In this document: positions 4,321-22,907 of the stretch, piece by piece
Layout of the letters: the number at the start of each line of letters is the position of its first letter
Numbering within the stretch: the first letter of the stretch is position 1
Source: a virus
Virus record (IMG/VR): IMGVR_UViG_3300037882_004575
Location: 1-46,085 of that record
Length of the DNA: 46,085 nt
Direction: 5' to 3' (one strand)
The notes under the pieces: generated by a model
The model's input: the letters and a program-made list of their open reading frames with translations, nothing else
Database searches by the model: none
What the model was told of the DNA's origin: nothing
Program-made: the position numbers and the translations under genes

Positions 4321-5271
4321 ATGCCATTTTTCCAATCACAGCACGTTAAGATTTCCACCGGGAACGGCGAGGGATTCCAGTCGATAGAGCGCATTCAAAG
4401 TGCTACTTGGGGTTTTCAGATTCCGCGTGCGGATATTAGTAATCTTGGCCGGTTTAAGCCACTTAATGAGCGCCCCGTAATTAACTATACACCAATCAGT
4501 TATAGTATAGATGCGATTAAAAGTTCTCGCGAAATTGAAACAAATCTAGGACTAATCAATACGACAGGTGTGGGAATCGTTTTAGGCCAAACTAACGGCA
4601 CTTCACTAACGAATTATGGAACCCGAAATCTAGAATTCCTAAATGGGGCTTCAAATTCAGCTAATTACGATACCAAAGTAACTGTTTATTCAGGTTGTTT
4701 AAATTCCTACTCAATGAACGTGAGTATTGGAGAGCCCGCGAAAGTGTCCTTTAACGGTGAGGGGTTTGATTATAAGGTAGAAGCCTTCACGGATGCTAAA
4801 GACAACACAAATTTTGCTACCGCTCTTGTTCGCGCGCAAGACACTTTCTATACGGGTATTCAATTCAGCGGTGCGGGCGTGACTGGATTAAACGTGCAAA
4901 GCTTCGGACTTAACCTAAGTTTCGGTCGGCAAGCGATTGGTTATTTCGGGCGCAAATTTCCAGATCGTCCTATTACTAGCATTAACGCATCAATTTCGGT
5001 AAACGGATTCTTGGAGGGGTTTAGCCCGCTAAATAATTTAAGCCACTTTGATTGCGGCCACCCATTAACGGGAAGTATTTTCGTGACTTTAATTCCCTCG
5101 TGTTCGGGTGCGGGTGCAGGAACAACTTACGAAATCACCAACTCTTACATTGATAGCGTCAACTTCGGTTCCTCGGTTGGTTCATTCACAAGTGTAGATT
5201 TTGGATTATCTTTACCAATCAGCGTTTCTGCCACTGAGGCCGCGAATGGGTCGAATTTAAAAATAACCTAA
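4321..5271 (+). CDS. Tail-tube-like structural protein, paralog B
   Basis: A 316-residue protein related to the products at 1-1128 and 5322-6437. The shared order is: an N-terminal 'RIQSATWGFQIPRADISNLGRF' segment (compare RAQSFSHDFTINRQDVNQMG), a middle 'LNSYSMNVSIGEPAKVSFNGEG' segment (compare SNINWNFSVGAIPTCDVTFE), then a second half repeating the same layout ('GLNLSFGRQAIGYFGRKFPD', later 'SVDFGLSLPI'). This looks like two tube-type beta domains in tandem. It is probably a minor tube or tail-terminal tube protein beside the major tube protein. The start is the ATG at 4321, preceded by AAAGG. Confidence 0.55.
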   Translation: MPFFQSQHVKISTGNGEGFQSIERIQSATWGFQIPRADISNLGRFKPLNERPVINYTPISYSIDAIKSSREIETNLGLINTTGVGIVLGQTNGTSLTNYGTRNLEFLNGASNSANYDTKVTVYSGCLNSYSMNVSIGEPAKVSFNGEGFDYKVEAFTDAKDNTNFATALVRAQDTFYTGIQFSGAGVTGLNVQSFGLNLSFGRQAIGYFGRKFPDRPITSINASISVNGFLEGFSPLNNLSHFDCGHPLTGSIFVTLIPSCSGAGAGTTYEITNSYIDSVNFGSSVGSFTSVDFGLSLPISVSATEAANGSNLKIT

Positions 5272-5321: not shown

Positions 5322-6437
5322 ATGAGCAGAATCCGCAATTTATATCAATCTGAGGCCATCTTTATTACCAGCGGTGTCGCCTCTGGTTATATGTTCTCAT
5401 CGGGCAATTCCGGCATTAATGGCCTTTTACAAATTCATCGCGCCCAATCTTTCTCTCACGATTTTACAATTAATCGTCAGGATGTTAACCAGATGGGCCA
5501 ACTTTCCCGTGTTGACTCGATTATCACTGAAGCTCCGACCGTAAATCTTTCCCTTCAGTATTATCCTACTGATGGTGCAAATGAGTCTAAAATCGGTCTA
5601 TTTGCTAAGGGCGGCGTCTCTTGTTTATCCGGTATTCTATCTAAAGCCACCGACCCGAAGAATATTTTTTGCGTATTAAGTCCTGAAGGCTCTGATGCTA
5701 TCGGTAATACCAATACTAATGCCCAAGCTGTTTACGCTTTCGGTAATGCTTCCGTATCAAATATTAACTGGAATTTCTCAGTTGGCGCTATCCCAACTTG
5801 CGATGTTACTTTTGAAGCCCTTAACGTAGATTATCAGACTGGTTCACAAAATCTCCCAACTCCCGCCGTTAATCTTGAGAATGGTCGCCCAATTACTGGG
5901 ATTAATTTTAGCATTCCTACTGCTACCGCTGGAACTGGCGTCGGTCTATTAAGCGCCCTTAAACCCGGCGATGTTAACATTGAGATGGACAATTCCGATG
6001 CGACGGCTCTCGGTATTTATACCAGCGGCGCTAACAAGGTTCCCGTTCAAAGCGTTTCCATTTCCCTTCCTCTCGCGCGCGAAAATCTTAATCGTTTGGG
6101 TTCTGCCTTTGCTTATGCTAAAGCTGAAACTTACCCGATTACTCCCACCGTTCAGGTTGAGGTTTTTGCCACCGAACTTAAGGCCAGCTCTTTGAGCGAT
6201 GTTCTTTGTAATGACGCCTTCACTAATTTCGCTGTCACCTGTAAAGAACCAAACTGCGAAGGCACCGGCGCTGTTTTCCTTCGTTTTGATATTAGAAATG
6301 CTAAGCTGGAAAGCCAGTCCTTTTCAAATGCGGTTGGTCAAAATGCGGAAACTGTTAGTTTAAGCTATAGTTGCACAATAGGGGGACCCGAGGATATTAC
6401 AAACGGAATTATGATCTCCGGTCGGAATGCATTCTAA
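5322..6437 (+). CDS. Probable major tail tube protein
   Basis: A 371-residue protein of the same family as the two tube-like paralogs. Three facts mark it as the abundant one. It sits immediately before the chaperone-like and tape-measure genes. It has its own candidate promoter (5287) and a strong terminator (6460). Its codons differ from its neighbours: Leu is often CTT/CTC and Arg CGT/CGC, where surrounding genes favour TTA and AGA. The chain looks duplicated: 'FTINRQDVNQMGQL' and later 'SLPLARENLNRLGSA' occupy equivalent places, and each half ends in a similar beta segment. Tube proteins with two fused domains (T5 pb6) assemble as trimers instead of hexamers; whether that holds here is inference. 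The codon bias fades over the last 30 or so codons. Confidence 0.65.
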   Translation: MSRIRNLYQSEAIFITSGVASGYMFSSGNSGINGLLQIHRAQSFSHDFTINRQDVNQMGQLSRVDSIITEAPTVNLSLQYYPTDGANESKIGLFAKGGVSCLSGILSKATDPKNIFCVLSPEGSDAIGNTNTNAQAVYAFGNASVSNINWNFSVGAIPTCDVTFEALNVDYQTGSQNLPTPAVNLENGRPITGINFSIPTATAGTGVGLLSALKPGDVNIEMDNSDATALGIYTSGANKVPVQSVSISLPLARENLNRLGSAFAYAKAETYPITPTVQVEVFATELKASSLSDVLCNDAFTNFAVTCKEPNCEGTGAVFLRFDIRNAKLESQSFSNAVGQNAETVSLSYSCTIGGPEDITNGIMISGRNAF

Positions 6438-16211: not shown

Positions 16212-16946
16212 ATGTCAACTCAATATACGTATTTCCCATATGATAACAACTCGAATTATAAAAAGTTTGATGTTGTAAGGGGTTTGTCCAGCACGGACAC
16301 CTATTACTTATACGCGACTCAGGATAGCATTGGGCAAAAACCAAATAGTTCTTACATTTATCCTATAACAGCGTTAGTAAGAGACGACTTTAAAATCAGA
16401 CTAACCCTAAATAAGACTGGAAGCGGGCCGAGTTTTGCCGCCGGTTCAGTTATTGTTGTCACAGGCGCGGCGCAGGGAAATTTCACGGGAATGGTGGTTG
16501 AGGGTGGCTCGAATTATGTTGATTACATAAGTAATGGTCAACCGTTAACCTTGGGGACTAGTGGCGCGGTAAATACAATTTATAATCCAGCTTGGACGAG
16601 CGGGTTTATGTTTATTCCATCGTATGGATCTAATTTAGATACTCAAACCCGAAAAGTTGAGGCAAAATTTGGCGATGGTTACTCTCAACGGCAACGGGAC
16701 GGAATCAATTCAAATTCTCACACATGGAAATTAAGTTTTGAAAATAGGTCCGACAGAGAAGCTCGCGCATTAAGTAATTTTATCGAAGACAAAGGTGGCG
16801 TAGATAATTTCCAACTTTTACTACCCGCAAACCGATTAGTGATTGACCCTTACCTAAAATATGTTGCGACAAACCCTCAGACGAACACACAATCGTTTAA
16901 TATAAACAACATAAGCGCAGATTTCATGCAAGTCTTTGATATATGA
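16212..16946 (+). CDS. Minor tail protein gpM-like with N-terminal carbohydrate-binding-like module
   Basis: A 244-residue tail-tip protein. Residues about 132-215 are the gpM-like part (FIPSYGSNL; 'VEAKFGDGYSQRQRDGINS'; 'WKLSFENRSDREARALSNFI'; a final 'GGVDNFQLLLP'). Lambda gpM is about 110 residues, so about 130 residues are extra. The N-terminal 60 (Y..NSNYKKFDVVRG, then YYLYATQDSIGQKP) follow the 'Y..fDvV....yY.a.qds....P' pattern of small CBM5/12-like folds. gpM caps the tail-tip side of the tube in lambda; the added module may bind a host glycan (inference). It overlaps gpL by ATGA. Confidence 0.75.
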   Translation: MSTQYTYFPYDNNSNYKKFDVVRGLSSTDTYYLYATQDSIGQKPNSSYIYPITALVRDDFKIRLTLNKTGSGPSFAAGSVIVVTGAAQGNFTGMVVEGGSNYVDYISNGQPLTLGTSGAVNTIYNPAWTSGFMFIPSYGSNLDTQTRKVEAKFGDGYSQRQRDGINSNSHTWKLSFENRSDREARALSNFIEDKGGVDNFQLLLPANRLVIDPYLKYVATNPQTNTQSFNINNISADFMQVFDI

Positions 16947-17845
16947 GTCAACAGAAAGTCAATTTAGAGGCGACAAAATTCAACCCATCATCACTTCTAT
17001 CTCTATATGAGCTAGATGCGTCGGCGGTTGGTGGCCCGCATCTGTATTTTCATGATGGCTCAAGCAATAATTATCAGAATATCACGTTAGATGGTCAGGA
17101 ATACACGGCGTTTCCAATTTTTATGGAGGGTTTTGAGTATGACGGGAAGGGTTCCTTGCCAAGACCCCGCTTAAGGGCGGCTAATGTTAATGGATTTGTA
17201 TCGGCTTATATTTTAGGCGGCTCAAGTTTAATTAATGCCCGTTTTATGCGGCGTAGAATTTTCGCGCGATATATTGATGCGGTAAATTTCACGAATGGAG
17301 TTAACCCGTTTGGAACACCTGATCCAACCGCCGTTTACCCGGATGATGTTTTTGTTGTGAATAGAAAGGTCACTGAGAATAGGCAGTATGTTGAGTTTGA
17401 ATTGTCCACTCCACTAGAGATTGACAATGTAATGCTACCCAATAGGCAGATTTTTGCTCATATTTGCGGGTTCAAATATCGCGATTCCTCCTGTGGTTAT
17501 TCGGGGGTTCCTGTTGGGGACAAGAATAATCGTTCGTTTGGGCCAACTGGTTATAATTTTACGTTGGTCGATCAGGGAGAATACGATGAGGCAACGACTT
17601 ACAATATTGGGGATTATGTATTTATTACAAGCACCTTGCCGCAAACTTCGGGTGAATTGAATTATTTCGTTTGTAATGCCAATGGAACAGTTGGATTGGC
17701 TAATGGCCCATTGAAAAAACCCGCGAACTGGGTGCAAGATTACTGTTCAAAATCTATTCCCGGATGCCGATTAAGGTATATTTCTCCAACAACCTTGCGT
17801 TTTGGCGGTTTCCCGGGTGCTTCAAGAGGAGGATACTCGATATGA
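16943..17845 (+). CDS. Minor tail protein gpL-like, iron-sulfur tail-tip protein with inserted domain
   Basis: A 300-residue protein in lambda gpL position. The N-terminal 170 residues contain the usual 'PRPRLRAANVNGF' segment. The C-terminal part has cysteines C175, C184, C268 and C275, spaced 8 and 6 residues within the pairs. Lambda gpL has the same 8 and 6 spacing in the domain that holds a [4Fe-4S] cluster. In lambda the two pairs are about 22 residues apart; here they are 83 apart. The insert (about 195-265) contains 'YDEATTYNIGDYVFI' and ends 'KKPANW', the pattern of CBM5/12 chitin-binding-like modules. Coupled to gpK by ATGA. Confidence 0.8.
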   Translation: MSQQKVNLEATKFNPSSLLSLYELDASAVGGPHLYFHDGSSNNYQNITLDGQEYTAFPIFMEGFEYDGKGSLPRPRLRAANVNGFVSAYILGGSSLINARFMRRRIFARYIDAVNFTNGVNPFGTPDPTAVYPDDVFVVNRKVTENRQYVEFELSTPLEIDNVMLPNRQIFAHICGFKYRDSSCGYSGVPVGDKNNRSFGPTGYNFTLVDQGEYDEATTYNIGDYVFITSTLPQTSGELNYFVCNANGTVGLANGPLKKPANWVQDYCSKSIPGCRLRYISPTTLRFGGFPGASRGGYSI

Positions 17846-18528
17846 ATAGTAGAATTAAACAGGGGATTATTGATCTCGCCCTCAAATCCGATAAAGAGAT
17901 TTGCGGTTTTATTTATAATGATTCGGGATTGGCCAAACTTTTTGAGTGTGAGAATATAGCTACAGATAAAGAGAATACTTTTGAAATTTCCGCCGAAGAT
18001 TATATTAAGTGCTTTAATTTAGGCAAGATTTACGGGATATATCACTCTCACGTTAATCAGGTTTCAGACTTCAGCATTCATGATAAAGAACTTTCCGAAG
18101 AAATGGGCATTCCTATTTATGTTTTTTCAATAAAAGATAACTTATTTAACTTGTTTATACCCAACGACTTAGACATTTCTGACTACGTTGGTCGGACATT
18201 CTGTTGGGGATTTGATGATTGTTACGGGTTGGTGAAGGATTTTTATAGAAAAGAGTATAGAATTATTCTATCGGATTACGAGCGAGACGAAAACTTTCGT
18301 AATTCAGATTTCGATATTGTAGGCGAACTAAATAAGAATGATTTCAAGAAGGTTGATAGCCCGGAGAAGGGTGACATCATTTTGTTTAAAGGAGTTAAAG
18401 GCGCGCCAAAACATCTAGCTATTTATATGGGCGAGGGAAAAATTCTTCACCATGGATATAAAAAGTTATCCTGTATCAAGGAACTTGGCGAATCAGCATT
18501 AAACATTGAAGGGGTTTACAGAAAATGA
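17842..18528 (+). CDS. Tail assembly protein gpK-like: JAMM peptidase plus NlpC/P60
   Basis: A 228-residue two-domain protein. Residues 1-110 are a Mov34/MPN (JAMM) metallopeptidase with the complete HxHx7Sx2D motif: H68, H70, S78, D81, and E19 as probable catalytic glutamate. Residues 115-228 are an NlpC/P60-type cysteine peptidase with 'DDCYGLV' (C127) and H191 in 'APKHLAIYMG'. Lambda gpK has the same two domains and acts at the tail tip. The ATG at 17842 was chosen because AGAGGAGGA lies 9 bases upstream and it forms an ATGA overlap with gpL; an in-frame ATG at 17764 would add residues that match nothing in the family. Confidence 0.9.
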   Translation: MNSRIKQGIIDLALKSDKEICGFIYNDSGLAKLFECENIATDKENTFEISAEDYIKCFNLGKIYGIYHSHVNQVSDFSIHDKELSEEMGIPIYVFSIKDNLFNLFIPNDLDISDYVGRTFCWGFDDCYGLVKDFYRKEYRIILSDYERDENFRNSDFDIVGELNKNDFKKVDSPEKGDIILFKGVKGAPKHLAIYMGEGKILHHGYKKLSCIKELGESALNIEGVYRK

Positions 18529-19190
18529 CCTTAACGACAATTCATTTAGGCGGAGTTCTAGGCAGAATGTTTGGCAAAAAATGGGAACTATATGTGAATA
18601 GTCCAGCGGAAGCAATTCGCGCAATTGATGTGAATGTGGGTGGTCGATTGAGGGAGTATTTGAGCACTAAGGGGTCCAAAAAATATTATAAGGTGGCGGT
18701 TCAAAATAAGAATAATTTGCTGAGCAAAGATGAAATAGGTGGGAGAACTGGAAGTGGAGATATTTTTATTTTACCAACAATTAGGGGCGCGGGCGATGAT
18801 GGTGGACTTTTACAGATTATTATTGGGGTTGTCTTAATTGTCGCTACTTGGGGCGCGGCCACGGCAGGTGTGATTGCTTATGGATCAACAGCGGCAACAA
18901 TAGGATTTGGGCTTGGAGCATCTATGGTATTGGGAGGTATAGTTCAAATGCTAACTCCTCAGCCAAAGATGACCAAAGATAAGGAGGGGAAGGGTTCAAC
19001 TTTATTTCCCGGTGGTGCGGTCGCGATTGAGCAAGGGAATGCGGTCCCGCTAATTTATGGCCGAATACTAACAAGCGCAGTTCCAATCAATATTAGTATT
19101 AACAACTATCAAGAATCAAATAAAAGTCAGGCGGATATTGAATTTCCCGTTAGAATAGATTTACCCGATGGCTCCTTCTATTACCAGTGA
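18525..19190 (+). CDS. Tail assembly protein gpI-like
   Basis: A 221-residue protein that follows gpK with an ATGA overlap. It shows the gpI layout: an N-terminal ubiquitin-like part ('LGGVLGRMFGKKWELYVNSP', 'AIRAIDVN'), then a hydrophobic Gly/Ala-rich double segment at about residues 88-145 (LLQIIIGVVLIVATWGAA and GFGLGASMVLGGIVQMLTP), then a short C-terminal strand region. In lambda, gpI is needed for tail-tip assembly and works with gpJ. The gene ends 6 bases before gpJ. Confidence 0.85.
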   Translation: MTLTTIHLGGVLGRMFGKKWELYVNSPAEAIRAIDVNVGGRLREYLSTKGSKKYYKVAVQNKNNLLSKDEIGGRTGSGDIFILPTIRGAGDDGGLLQIIIGVVLIVATWGAATAGVIAYGSTAATIGFGLGASMVLGGIVQMLTPQPKMTKDKEGKGSTLFPGGAVAIEQGNAVPLIYGRILTSAVPINISINNYQESNKSQADIEFPVRIDLPDGSFYYQ

Positions 19191-19196
19191 CCTATT

Positions 19197-22100
19197 ATGG
19201 CCTCTAAACCTGCAAAACCCACTTCAGTTCCCCCCGCCGGATACGCTTGGAAATATAGTAATGGAGCGTGGAGCCTCATACTAAAGAATGATACCAAACG
19301 GCAAGTTTCCATCATTCAACAGAACGGCGGTTATAATGATTTGATTCCGGGTGCGGCAACAGGCTCAGCGGCACTTGAAACGATTTTCACGAAAGAAAAG
19401 AAATCAACATTAGTTTCTAAATCAGTTTGGAAAATAACAGACTTGCTTGGTGAGGGGCCAATATCTGGTTTTTTCTATAATTCCGGCATTTATGGATCAG
19501 ATCCCTTAACGTCAACCTATTTCGATGGTGTTCGAGTTAGGAATTTAGACGGTAATTATAACTTTAACTTATCGGGATTTTCGGGCTCAGCCAGCGCGAA
19601 ATCATTTGAATTTAATTATACTCTAGGGACAAGTGGGCAATCAGGAATACCGGGCTTCAATAAAACAGAGGTATTTCTTCCGTTAAGCGCGAACACGAAT
19701 GTCTCCAAACTGCCATCGTCTCTTGGCGTTCCAAAAGATGTTATATTCACGATCAATAAGAAAGATTATATTGACATTGAAGGGATTAAATTAACCTTAC
19801 GGGTTCCGGCTCTATATCATATTAAGAATGATGGAAGCAAAAAAGGGTTGCAAATTCTTTATTCGGTTAAGGCTAGAAAGGATAATGGTACTGAAATTGA
19901 TCTTTTGCCAGAGAGATTAGTGGCCTCGACATTTGATGAATTGTTACAAAAATGGAATTTCGAGAAACGAAAAGTCGGGGCGATTTTGGGCATTGCAAAT
20001 TCCCCCTATCTAACGACCCGCCCAATTTATCATAGCATATTCCAAGATTCTTGGTCTCGTTTAACGATTAGGGTGGTCAGAGAAAATGAAAATGTGGTGA
20101 GCGACCGAGATCAAAACGAATTATTTGTCGATTCCGTTGCGGCCCTTTGTTCAAATAAGTATTCCTACCCGAATAGTTCTATCGCGGGGATGATTTTTAA
20201 CTCAGATCAAATCACGCAAATTCCCGTCAGATCTTACGATTTAATGGGGCTTCTCCTTGATGTTCCAGAAGGATACGTGCCGACAAAAATTAACCCTGAT
20301 GGAAGTTTCACGGCGGCTTCTTACCCTTCTATTTGGTTAGGGAATTTTTCAACGAATAAAAAGTGGACTAATAACCCAGCGTGGGTTTTTTACGACCTTT
20401 TAACAAACAGGCGATATGGCTTAGGGAACTATTTCGCCGCGAGTCAAATTGATAAATGGACACTGTATGAAATTGCAAAATATTGCGATGAAATGGTTGA
20501 TGATGGAGATGGCGGACTAGAACCGCGCTTTACCTGTAATACATCAATCTCAACAAGAGAGGCCGCGTATGAGTTAATCCAAGATTTGGCGTCCTGTTTT
20601 CAAGGGATGACCTATTGGGCGAATGGGAAAATCTTCGTTAATGCGTCGAAAACATATCCGTCCGTTTATGATTTTACAAATGCCAATGTAATCGATGGGA
20701 ATTTCTTATACTCTGATACCGCACGTAATACTAGGTCAACTGTAATTAAGGTAAAGTGGCGAGATCCCGACCTATTATTTAAGGAGGATGTTTTAAAAAT
20801 TGAAGACCCCGATGGAATATTGAAATATGGATATATTGAGAAGGATATTCAGGCTTTTGGTTGTACATCAAGGGGTTTGGCTACGCGCGTTGCAAACTGG
20901 ATTCTTGAATCAGAGCGCCTTCTAACTGAGACTGTAACATTTCAAACATCCTTAGAGGGTATCTATTTGCGCCCCGGGGATAATTTCAACATTTACGATA
21001 ACTTCGTTAATAATAAAAGTCAAGGCGGGCGCATATTAAAATTAGAAACCTCCTTAACTGGGATTCACTTAGACCGCCCTGTGAATTTAGATGTTGGTAA
21101 AACATACGAATTATCCCTTGTCCGCCCGCAGTTTAACTATAGTGATGTTTCGGAAGTTACTGGATCGAATCAATTTTCTGGTATAAGAAACCCACAAATT
21201 GACGCACGAACGGTTTCCTCGGTTGCCGGGAGCGGGTTAACATTTATTGGAGTTAATAGCGCGTTTGGAACGGGGATACAAAACGGTGCGATTTGGATTT
21301 TATCCTCAACATCATCAGGAATTTACAACGATGCATCCCGAACATTCCGGTGTTTAGCGGCGTCCGAGTTAGAACCCGGGATTATTGAGGTTTTGGGAGT
21401 GGAGAATAACACGGGAATCGTTTATCGCGCGTCAACGGGTTATTATGCTAATAATATAAATGTAATTCCGAATGTTTTAGACCCAATTGATCCACCCTCA
21501 AATCTATCAGTTGGCTACTACACGGGTTTGCAATTAGGCCAATTCCAATTTAACTATCAATTAAATTGGGTTGATAGTCCATCGACGAACTTATCCTATT
21601 ATCAAATTTCGGGCAAGATTGGAACGGGCGATTATATTGATATTGCCGAGGTTAATGCAACCGGCTATACAAGTCCATTTACTGAGAGCGGTTATTATCA
21701 ATTTAGATTAGGGGCAGTTAGTGACGAGGGAGTTCACTCAAGTTACATTACCGGCGGAATATTATTCTCGTTAACTAGTAATCCATTAGGCGGGCCACCG
21801 GAAATTTCTGGGATTCAGGTTGATTATAATGCTGATATCGATAGAACGCCAACTGGTTACGTAAATAATGATTTCTCAATAAATTGGCAAATGGAAGCGG
21901 GCGAAGAGGAGGGGTATTTCTCGGCTAAAAGCGCCTTTTTCTCGGGTTATAAAGTATCTATTCTGAACCCAGATTCGGACGCGGTTTTATTAACGGACAA
22001 CCTAAACGATCCCAACCTAAACTCGTACTTTTTCGACCGCGAAGTTTTAACTGGGTTAGGTTTAAACCGGCGCGATACAAAAATTCGCCTAACCAGTCAT

Positions 22101-22907
22101 GATATTTTCGGGGCGAGTACAACTCCAATTGATACCGTATTTTACGATCATCCCGCGCGCGCACCCGTGACTAGCGGATTTATTCAGACGGTCGGCGGAT
22201 TAAATTACTCAATGATTCCGGATAGTAGGGACCTTGATTTGAGTGGATCTTATTTATGGGCTAATGAATCAAACTCATTCATACCAACGTTCAGTAATCA
22301 TAGCACCTCATCAAGTGAGACAGAAGGGTTTTTAGCCAATTCCTTCTCAGATATATTTTACGTTTGGTTTTCCCTAATTGATAATTTCGGCACGGGCGGG
22401 AGCCAGATTTATGGGCCGGTTGAGGTTGAGCCCACTGTTTCTATCGTTACTGGCATTCAGGCTTTTGGGAGCCCTTACCTAAAGGGTGGTGTAACCTTAT
22501 CCGGTGTTGGCGGAGTTAATTTGAGCCAAAATGGCCAAACAATCTTTATCAGCGGCGAACGGAGCCCCTTTAATTTAGGATTTTTCTTGGACAATGCGCC
22601 CGACGAAACGGGAATAGCGATGGGTGAACTAATCTCGTCAAAAGGATTCGTTTTTACAGGATATTCGGTTAGTTGCCGGACAGTGGGCTCAGCCAACTTA
22701 AGCGGTCTTCTGTATCATTGCGCCTTAGATAACAGTGATAAAACATCGCTTGGAAGTTACGGATTGGTTGCGGGGCAAACGAATCGGACGCAGGGATTAC
22801 CTTATGTAACAGTTCCTCAATCAAGGAAGATCGGGTATGATGTAACCTCGTTACCAACTGATGCGGAAAAGATTAGCCTAGGAATATTCGGCTTCGACGT
22901 GAAATAA
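19197..22907 (+). CDS. gpJ-like central tail tip / host specificity protein
   Basis: A 1236-residue protein in gpJ position. Recognised parts: residues 65-90 'LVSKSVWKITDLLGEGPISG' (the gpJ/TipJ family opening); about 380-480 the phage-tail_3 type region (PAWVFYDLLTNRRYGLG; 'EPRFTCNTSISTREAAYELI'; 'ASCFQGMTYWANGKIFV'); about 765-860 a fibronectin type III-like domain (PPSNLSVGYY; YYQISGKIG); then a beta-rich C-terminal 200 residues with 'GGVTLSGVGGVNLSQNGQTI', probably fibre-like. gpJ hubs bind the host receptor with the C-terminus. Length is close to lambda gpJ (1132). The first codon follows 'ctattatgg' without a clear Shine-Dalgarno; coupling from gpI is likely. Confidence 0.88.
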   Translation: MASKPAKPTSVPPAGYAWKYSNGAWSLILKNDTKRQVSIIQQNGGYNDLIPGAATGSAALETIFTKEKKSTLVSKSVWKITDLLGEGPISGFFYNSGIYGSDPLTSTYFDGVRVRNLDGNYNFNLSGFSGSASAKSFEFNYTLGTSGQSGIPGFNKTEVFLPLSANTNVSKLPSSLGVPKDVIFTINKKDYIDIEGIKLTLRVPALYHIKNDGSKKGLQILYSVKARKDNGTEIDLLPERLVASTFDELLQKWNFEKRKVGAILGIANSPYLTTRPIYHSIFQDSWSRLTIRVVRENENVVSDRDQNELFVDSVAALCSNKYSYPNSSIAGMIFNSDQITQIPVRSYDLMGLLLDVPEGYVPTKINPDGSFTAASYPSIWLGNFSTNKKWTNNPAWVFYDLLTNRRYGLGNYFAASQIDKWTLYEIAKYCDEMVDDGDGGLEPRFTCNTSISTREAAYELIQDLASCFQGMTYWANGKIFVNASKTYPSVYDFTNANVIDGNFLYSDTARNTRSTVIKVKWRDPDLLFKEDVLKIEDPDGILKYGYIEKDIQAFGCTSRGLATRVANWILESERLLTETVTFQTSLEGIYLRPGDNFNIYDNFVNNKSQGGRILKLETSLTGIHLDRPVNLDVGKTYELSLVRPQFNYSDVSEVTGSNQFSGIRNPQIDARTVSSVAGSGLTFIGVNSAFGTGIQNGAIWILSSTSSGIYNDASRTFRCLAASELEPGIIEVLGVENNTGIVYRASTGYYANNINVIPNVLDPIDPPSNLSVGYYTGLQLGQFQFNYQLNWVDSPSTNLSYYQISGKIGTGDYIDIAEVNATGYTSPFTESGYYQFRLGAVSDEGVHSSYITGGILFSLTSNPLGGPPEISGIQVDYNADIDRTPTGYVNNDFSINWQMEAGEEEGYFSAKSAFFSGYKVSILNPDSDAVLLTDNLNDPNLNSYFFDREVLTGLGLNRRDTKIRLTSHDIFGASTTPIDTVFYDHPARAPVTSGFIQTVGGLNYSMIPDSRDLDLSGSYLWANESNSFIPTFSNHSTSSSETEGFLANSFSDIFYVWFSLIDNFGTGGSQIYGPVEVEPTVSIVTGIQAFGSPYLKGGVTLSGVGGVNLSQNGQTIFISGERSPFNLGFFLDNAPDETGIAMGELISSKGFVFTGYSVSCRTVGSANLSGLLYHCALDNSDKTSLGSYGLVAGQTNRTQGLPYVTVPQSRKIGYDVTSLPTDAEKISLGIFGFDVK

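Follow-up and report, generated by a model that had tools for sequence, protein, structure and literature searches.

What fills the long loop that separates the two cysteine pairs in a lambda-type tail-tip protein? The question is raised by a viral DNA of 46,085 nucleotides (IMG/VR record IMGVR_UViG_3300037882_004575; the whole stretch is hereafter the window), in which a gpL-type hub protein carries its [4Fe-4S] domain in two halves, with residues 197-266 lying between them. We propose that these residues are a module with the fold of carbohydrate-binding module (CBM) family 5/12, grafted into the cysteine-pair loop of gpL and acting as an accessory glycan binder that aids adsorption. We put the probability of this reading at roughly 0.6.

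A split [4Fe-4S] domain in a lambda-type gpL

The carrier is readily placed. It matches PF05100 (phage minor tail protein L; E=2.9e-50, 170.9 bits against a curated cut-off of 25) and TIGR01600 (199.4 bits, curated cut-off 70.75), and its gene stands in the lambda order, tape measure-M-L-K-I-J (Table 1). A full-length AlphaFold2 model, built with 33 gpLs in the alignment, is good for the N-terminal HDI domain, which superposes on lambda gpL (8iyk_L) with a Z-score of 17.6 and a root-mean-square deviation (rmsd) of 3.3 over 160 residues, and poor beyond residue 160.

The window gpL has cysteines at positions 175, 184, 244, 268 and 275. Four of them, C175, C184, C268 and C275, occupy nearly invariant columns of a 33-sequence gpL alignment. 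The counterparts in lambda gpL, Cys173, 182, 205 and 212, have a spacing of 8-22-6 (PMC10721106); the spacing in the window protein is 8-83-6. An earlier note on this DNA, made from the letters alone, had described a domain inserted between the cysteine pairs at 17465-17770, and our counts agree with it: the span runs from C175 (17465-17467) to C275 (17765-17767), the 8- and 6-residue spacings of lambda are kept, and 83 residues instead of 22 separate the pairs. The fifth cysteine, C244, lies inside the insert and is a valine in the nearest relative, L037. By homology to lambda we infer that the window gpL holds a [4Fe-4S] cluster. Closeness of the four cysteines in space likewise rests on that homology, since the full-length model falls off before it reaches them. 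Two gpL relatives (L017 and L033) apparently lack all four [4Fe-4S] cysteines together with the C-terminal domain.

The insert as a separate module

The PF05100 profile alignment to the window gpL ends near residue 198, and none of the first 35 gpL relatives from IMG/VR has the insert. A scan with the C-terminal part of gpL did recover it in an independent IMG/VR contig, L037, at the identical site and with the identical length, in a locus syntenic with the window whose gpL is 66% identical overall. This recurrence excludes a sequencing artefact. Between the two proteins the HDI domain is 74% identical and the two Fe-S halves 80% and 65%; the insert is 43% identical and diverges faster than the protein that carries it. 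Both sequence landmarks singled out in the earlier note, TTYNIGDYVFI and ANW, are present, and their Y220, G223, D224 and W263 are common to L037; P260 completes the set of CBM core residues kept in both proteins. An independent and confidently predicted fold, homologues among tail fibres and faster divergence together support the view, already taken in that note, that the insert acts as a module in its own right. T1-like gpLs, considered as further carriers of the insert, were rejected; their cysteine spacing is normal.

Fold and relatives of the insert

Given residues 204-267 and 15 module sequences, AlphaFold2 predicts four strands and a short helix, with a mean predicted local distance difference test score (pLDDT) of 83 and a predicted template modelling score (pTM) of 0.65. 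The predicted model has the small three-stranded chitin-binding fold, and most of its top neighbours in the PDB are CBM5/12 domains. Foldseek returned a chitinase, 4tx8 (probability 0.99), the A-1(L) cyanophage tail fibre 8kec (0.96) and the chitin-binding domain 1ed7 (0.90, with a target-normalised TM-score of 0.77); the Vibrio cholerae chitin deacetylase also matched. In VIA-align 8kec leads with Z 7.7 (rmsd 1.5, 52 residues), followed by 4nz1 (6.5), ChiC 1wvu (6.2), ChiB 1e15 (5.5) and 1ed7 (5.3). A viral structure library yielded tail fibres, proteins with collagen repeats and others annotated as CBM5/12.

Searching bacterial genomes with the last 131 residues of gpL led to a Bacteroidetes protein that has collagen-like repeats and carries a similar module four times; the genome encoding it (G001) holds 16 module copies (L076:2515-5652; contigs C8, C19, C24 and C62), and this CBM5/12-like module type is also present in annotated phage tail fibres. 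A single-sequence scan of viral contigs for the Bacteroidetes module returned nothing; an alignment-based scan succeeded, locating it in 12 IMG/VR loci, mostly flanked by collagen-like Gly-X-Y repeats. A profile made from tail-fibre modules only (L083-L092) matches residues 210-265 of the window gpL with E=2.2e-5 and the L037 gpL with E=1.5e-4, and ranks the window gpL first among the open reading frames (ORFs) of the window, all others having E of at least 0.8. As the path to the modules was partly selected by the word YNIGDYVF, this profile, whose members came from other patterns, is the cleaner test. With hhalign, the inserts of 10 gpLs align end to end with three canonical CBM5/12 domains (E=2.7e-4, probability 41%); the two-sequence insert alignment gave no signal against N-terminal CBM5/12-like domains, a signal appearing with larger alignments only. 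Profile searches of PDB sequences stayed at E of about 0.2, the CBMs of chitin oligosaccharide deacetylases coming top for one alignment (A11) and mixed chance-level matches for two others (A8 and A12). A joint MAFFT alignment of gpL C-termini and tail-fibre modules was misaligned and left unused. Predicted structure and tail-fibre profile, taken together, support a CBM5/12-type fold for the insert.

Glycan binding or structure?

Several observations weigh against this assignment, against the proposed role, or against both. Every VIA-align Z-score is below 8, a range that by the tool's own account may reflect merely a common arrangement, so that the case is carried by the predominance of one known fold in the list, together with the sequence profile and the shared pattern. 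The insert matches no Pfam or NCBIfam family, and the profile comparison with CBM5/12 that the earlier note looked to came out negative, Pfam CBM_5_12 (PF02839) leaving the insert unmatched at E<=10; 3 of 10 module relatives match that family, the best at E=0.053. The module family was itself reached by way of a contig found partly through YNIGDYVF, and the alignment fed to AlphaFold2 includes distant modules that were placed by MAFFT. In the full-length model the C-terminal domain of gpL is left unresolved.

The binding site raises a further objection. An alignment to 1ed7 shows which features persist in the insert: the opening aromatic-Tyr-GD-V, the aromatic strand in the middle, the proline and the final tryptophan. 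The place of ChiA1 W687 is taken by N254/G255, a comparison that concerns that site only, and this position is non-aromatic in the other CBM-type gpL inserts too. W687, the exposed tryptophan of the GWEP motif, is the residue that we take to bind chitin. Because this canonical tryptophan is absent, we call the insert CBM5/12-like and keep it out of the family proper. The likeness claimed in the earlier note therefore holds for the fold, as predicted structure and tail-fibre profile have it, and does not extend to a Pfam match or to a counterpart of W687. Carbohydrate binding by the insert is putative.

The missing chitin-binding tryptophan also favours the main rival, namely that the CBM5/12-fold module is structural, contacting gpM, gpJ or side fibres or acting as a spacer, its glycan binding lost or never possessed. 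Similar folds in baseplate and capsid proteins of phages and contractile injection systems (7b5h, 7b5i, 9cuy and 6uzc) appear in the VIA-align list and point the same way. We regard a structural role as unlikely overall, because the fast divergence of the insert, its absence in most relatives and the lectin repeats found elsewhere at this loop fit an outward-facing adhesin better.

If the module is indeed an accessory glycan binder, it would work from within the loop between the cysteine pairs, where the [4Fe-4S] cluster, by clamping both loop ends, would allow a whole domain to be inserted with the hub undisturbed. The gpL trimer would present three such modules, one from each subunit, pointing sideways from the outside of the tail-tip cone, an outward position modelled on lambda, in which the [4Fe-4S] domain sits on the outer surface of the tail tip and the role of the conserved cluster was left open (PMC10721106). 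There the modules may serve as accessory and probably weak binders of a glycan on the host surface, adding avidity or steadying the tip at the envelope while gpJ seeks its receptor, much as the CBMs of evolved Dit proteins do. The earlier note had set adsorption next to the DNA-exit gate. That placement was overstated and is unsupported, as the plug of lambda consists of gpI and gpH inside the cone. The module does belong to the hub, which in the lambda structure (PMC10721106) encloses the gpI/gpH plug, and one could picture a sensor at the gate that opens the tip on binding carbohydrate; with no link between loop and plug, we consider this very improbable.

One loop, several kinds of insert

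The loop was surveyed in 127 distinct gpL relatives from a broader scan, which with the window make 128 sequences; the choice of query biases this sample, and its fractions should not be read as population frequencies. Loop insertions are present in 24 of the 128: 12 are CBM5/12-like, five bulb-lectin, six coiled-coil-flanked and one (L064) of another kind. No loop insertion was detected in the other 104, a few of which are fragments or lack the cysteines, and a spacing of 20-22 residues between the pairs holds for 87 of the 103 gpLs in which both pairs were detected. The CBM5/12-like inserts (n=12, the window included) put 79-129 residues between the pairs, share the CBM5/12 pattern and close with P...W..D-x-C. 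Bulb-type lectin-like repeats fill 291-309 residues between the pairs in L134, L137, L155, L165 and L169, and the L155 insert matches PF01453 above its cut-off (E=7.9e-8). Six gpLs have modules flanked by Ala-rich coiled-coil-like stretches (L116, L119, L130, L132, L161 and L167) and lie scattered on the gpL tree; in five of them both pairs were detected, 178-196 residues apart. On that tree, made from the conserved core by a quick method with SH-aLRT (approximate likelihood-ratio test) support only, a single change accounts for the lectin type (support 99) and a single change for the CBM type, there with a support of only 32; the coiled-coil type requires five, of which well supported branches force three or more. 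The 12 CBM5/12-like inserts are probably one clade. Among isolates, the gpL of cyanophage S-2L (L175:871-2178) has a long insert of the coiled-coil-flanked kind at the same site, with cysteines spaced 8-181-6; no annotated isolate with a CBM-type gpL insert was found in the phage collection.

That such different inserts are tolerated at one loop might also mean that the loop accepts any insertion and that the module is a functionless, neutral passenger, to which we give scant credence given that several inserts resemble adhesin-type domains (CBM5/12-like, bulb lectin) instead of random sequence, and that the five core residues are kept between the window and L037 despite 57% insert divergence.

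Other parts of gpL also accept additions. A second insertion site, after the fourth cysteine and before the LPFGGFPG tail, holds 212-458 extra residues in L127, L141, L142 and L166, the L127 insertion matching DUF7402 (E=4.7e-6). A CBM5/12-like domain is fused at the N-terminus of gpL in L025, L027-L033 and L063; that of L025 comes near Pfam CBM_5_12 (E=0.0015, below the cut-off). Insertions whose length a rough count by pattern puts at about 86-174 residues lie in the YLD-NF loop of the HDI domain in several gpL ORFs of L043-L056 and in L118, L121, L125, L128, L136 and L160.

Quite different domains in one loop, a lectin included, give the loop the look of a socket into which parts contacting the host surface are fitted, and the recurrent insertion of varied, partly sugar-binding-type domains suggests that the role of the [4Fe-4S] cluster is that of a clamp for an exchangeable attachment point. 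It is more tentative, and we would not bet on it, that the cysteine-pair loop of gpL generally serves as a socket for host-binding domains, with the cluster clamp permitting their exchange and giving lambda-like phages a second adhesion point. Were it so, CBM5/12-like, bulb-lectin, OB-type and coiled-coil-borne modules would be interchangeable with the hub undisturbed, and exchangeable adhesion in lambda-like phages would reach beyond gpJ and the side fibres. In uncultured phages, whose gpL commonly carries no annotation beyond minor tail protein, the length of gpL and the spacing of its cysteines could then reveal accessory host-binding parts. A recurrent adhesin socket at the [4Fe-4S] loop is a wider pattern worth testing.

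The tail-tip gene neighbourhood

Table 1. Tail-tip genes of the window and subdivisions of its gpL.
Feature	Position	Strand	Evidence
gpM/Dit-like minor tail protein, long N-terminal extension	16212..16946	+	PF05939 on residues 132-242 only
gpL-type tail-tip (hub) protein, 300 aa	16943..17845	+	PF05100, TIGR01600, gene order M-L-K-I-J
HDI (tail-tube-like) domain, gpL residues 1-166	16943..17440	+	AlphaFold2 model against lambda gpL 8iyk_L
[4Fe-4S] domain, first half, residues 167-196, C175 (17465-17467) and C184 (17492-17494)	17441..17530	+	Near-invariant Cys columns; lambda gpL homology
Insert between the Cys pairs, residues 197-266	17531..17740	+	Missing in most relatives, present in L037
Predicted CBM5/12-fold core of the insert, residues 204-267	17552..17743	+	AlphaFold2; Foldseek and VIA-align; tail-fibre-module profile
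[4Fe-4S] domain, second half, residues 267-300, C268 (17744-17746) and C275 (17765-17767), RFGGFPGA tail	17741..17842	+	Near-invariant Cys columns
gpK-like NlpC/P60 peptidase	17842..18528	+	PF00877, E=4.6e-13
gpI-like tail assembly/plug protein	18525..19190	+	phrog_32, E=1.8e-46
gpJ-like central fibre	19197..22907	+	phrog_31, E=2.6e-150

Three features near gpL or elsewhere in the window deserve mention in their own right. The gpM/Dit-like protein begins with an extension of about 130 residues (16212-16600) of unassigned kind, kept in L037, with no detectable similarity to CBM profiles. After gpJ, an ORF at 22910-24214 matches concanavalin A-like lectins in three stretches (PF13385, E=5.5e-10) and is probably another surface-binding protein. 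The ORFs at 22-1128, 4321-5271 and 5322-6437, alike in length and motifs as judged by eye, may be paralogues, possibly tail-tube-like.

Comparison with known systems

Lambda gpL (PDB 8iyk and 8k35) has the PF05100 family, the HDI fold and the 8- and 6-residue spacings in common with the window protein, and differs in having no inserted domain. A 2026 paper (PMC13243795) terms the C-terminal region of gpL hypervariable and places it, presumably, near the cell wall. In the literature searched, with subscription papers mostly outside it, a CBM5/12 or bulb-lectin domain between gpL cysteine pairs is undescribed, which is weak evidence of novelty.

Hubs of other phages and of a gene transfer agent likewise carry a domain between cysteine pairs. 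In the RcGTA hub Rcc01696/g13 (PDB 6teh/6tba) an ion-binding domain is split (143-167 and 250-263) around an 'oligosaccharide-binding' domain, 168-249 (PMC7296036); in the hub of roseophage R4C (8gtc), [4Fe-4S] segments 142-161 and 244-266 enclose a domain, 162-243, given the same name (PMC10276861). Gene order is similar. Both hubs are PF09931/PF09356 proteins, though, and their inserted domain resembles LKA1 gp49 and the T4 hub, not CBM5/12. The upper baseplate protein gp50 of JBD30 (8rk3), with cysteines at 147, 156, 238 and 245 (8-81-6; PMC11445458), comes nearly to the spacing of the window gpL; it is a DUF2163 protein, and the published account of its domain II is of a central beta-sandwich that includes a helix, not of a CBM5/12 fold.

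With R4C at 9-86-6 by our own count, position and near-equal length would suit an insert that is a diverged OB-type domain of such hubs (PF09356), retained and not gained. This origin is highly doubtful. The R4C hub matches PF09931 and PF09356 and the window gpL matches neither; we found no profile similarity between the insert and the R4C hub; in structure the insert has CBM5/12 domains as its neighbours; and gpL relatives at about 40% identity mostly have no domain at the loop. OB domains are missing from the VIA-align list for the insert, which leaves some OB likeness possible.

The reading of the insert as a CBM5/12-fold glycan binder finds its closest parallels in two further groups. The CBM5/12 domains of ChiA1 (1ed7), Streptomyces griseus ChiC (1wvu), SmChiB (1e15) and the V. 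cholerae chitin deacetylase (4nz1) share its predicted fold and the pattern [WY]-Y-GD-V ... Y ... P ... W; the insert departs from them in falling under every profile cut-off, in missing the canonical binding tryptophan and in its longer central hairpin. In the evolved Dit proteins of lactococcal, Oenococcus and streptococcal phages, a CBM is likewise inserted into a ring protein of the tail tip, and in skunaviruses such insertions enable or raise adsorption to exopolysaccharide-bearing lactococci (PMC10688798). Their carrier is Dit and not a [4Fe-4S] hub, and insertion site and module families differ; in the window the carrier is gpL, the distal tail protein being encoded by the separate gpM/Dit gene. 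A domain between the cysteine pairs of a hub is a known kind of arrangement, of which the window gives a version with a different inserted fold and a lambda-type gpL as its carrier.
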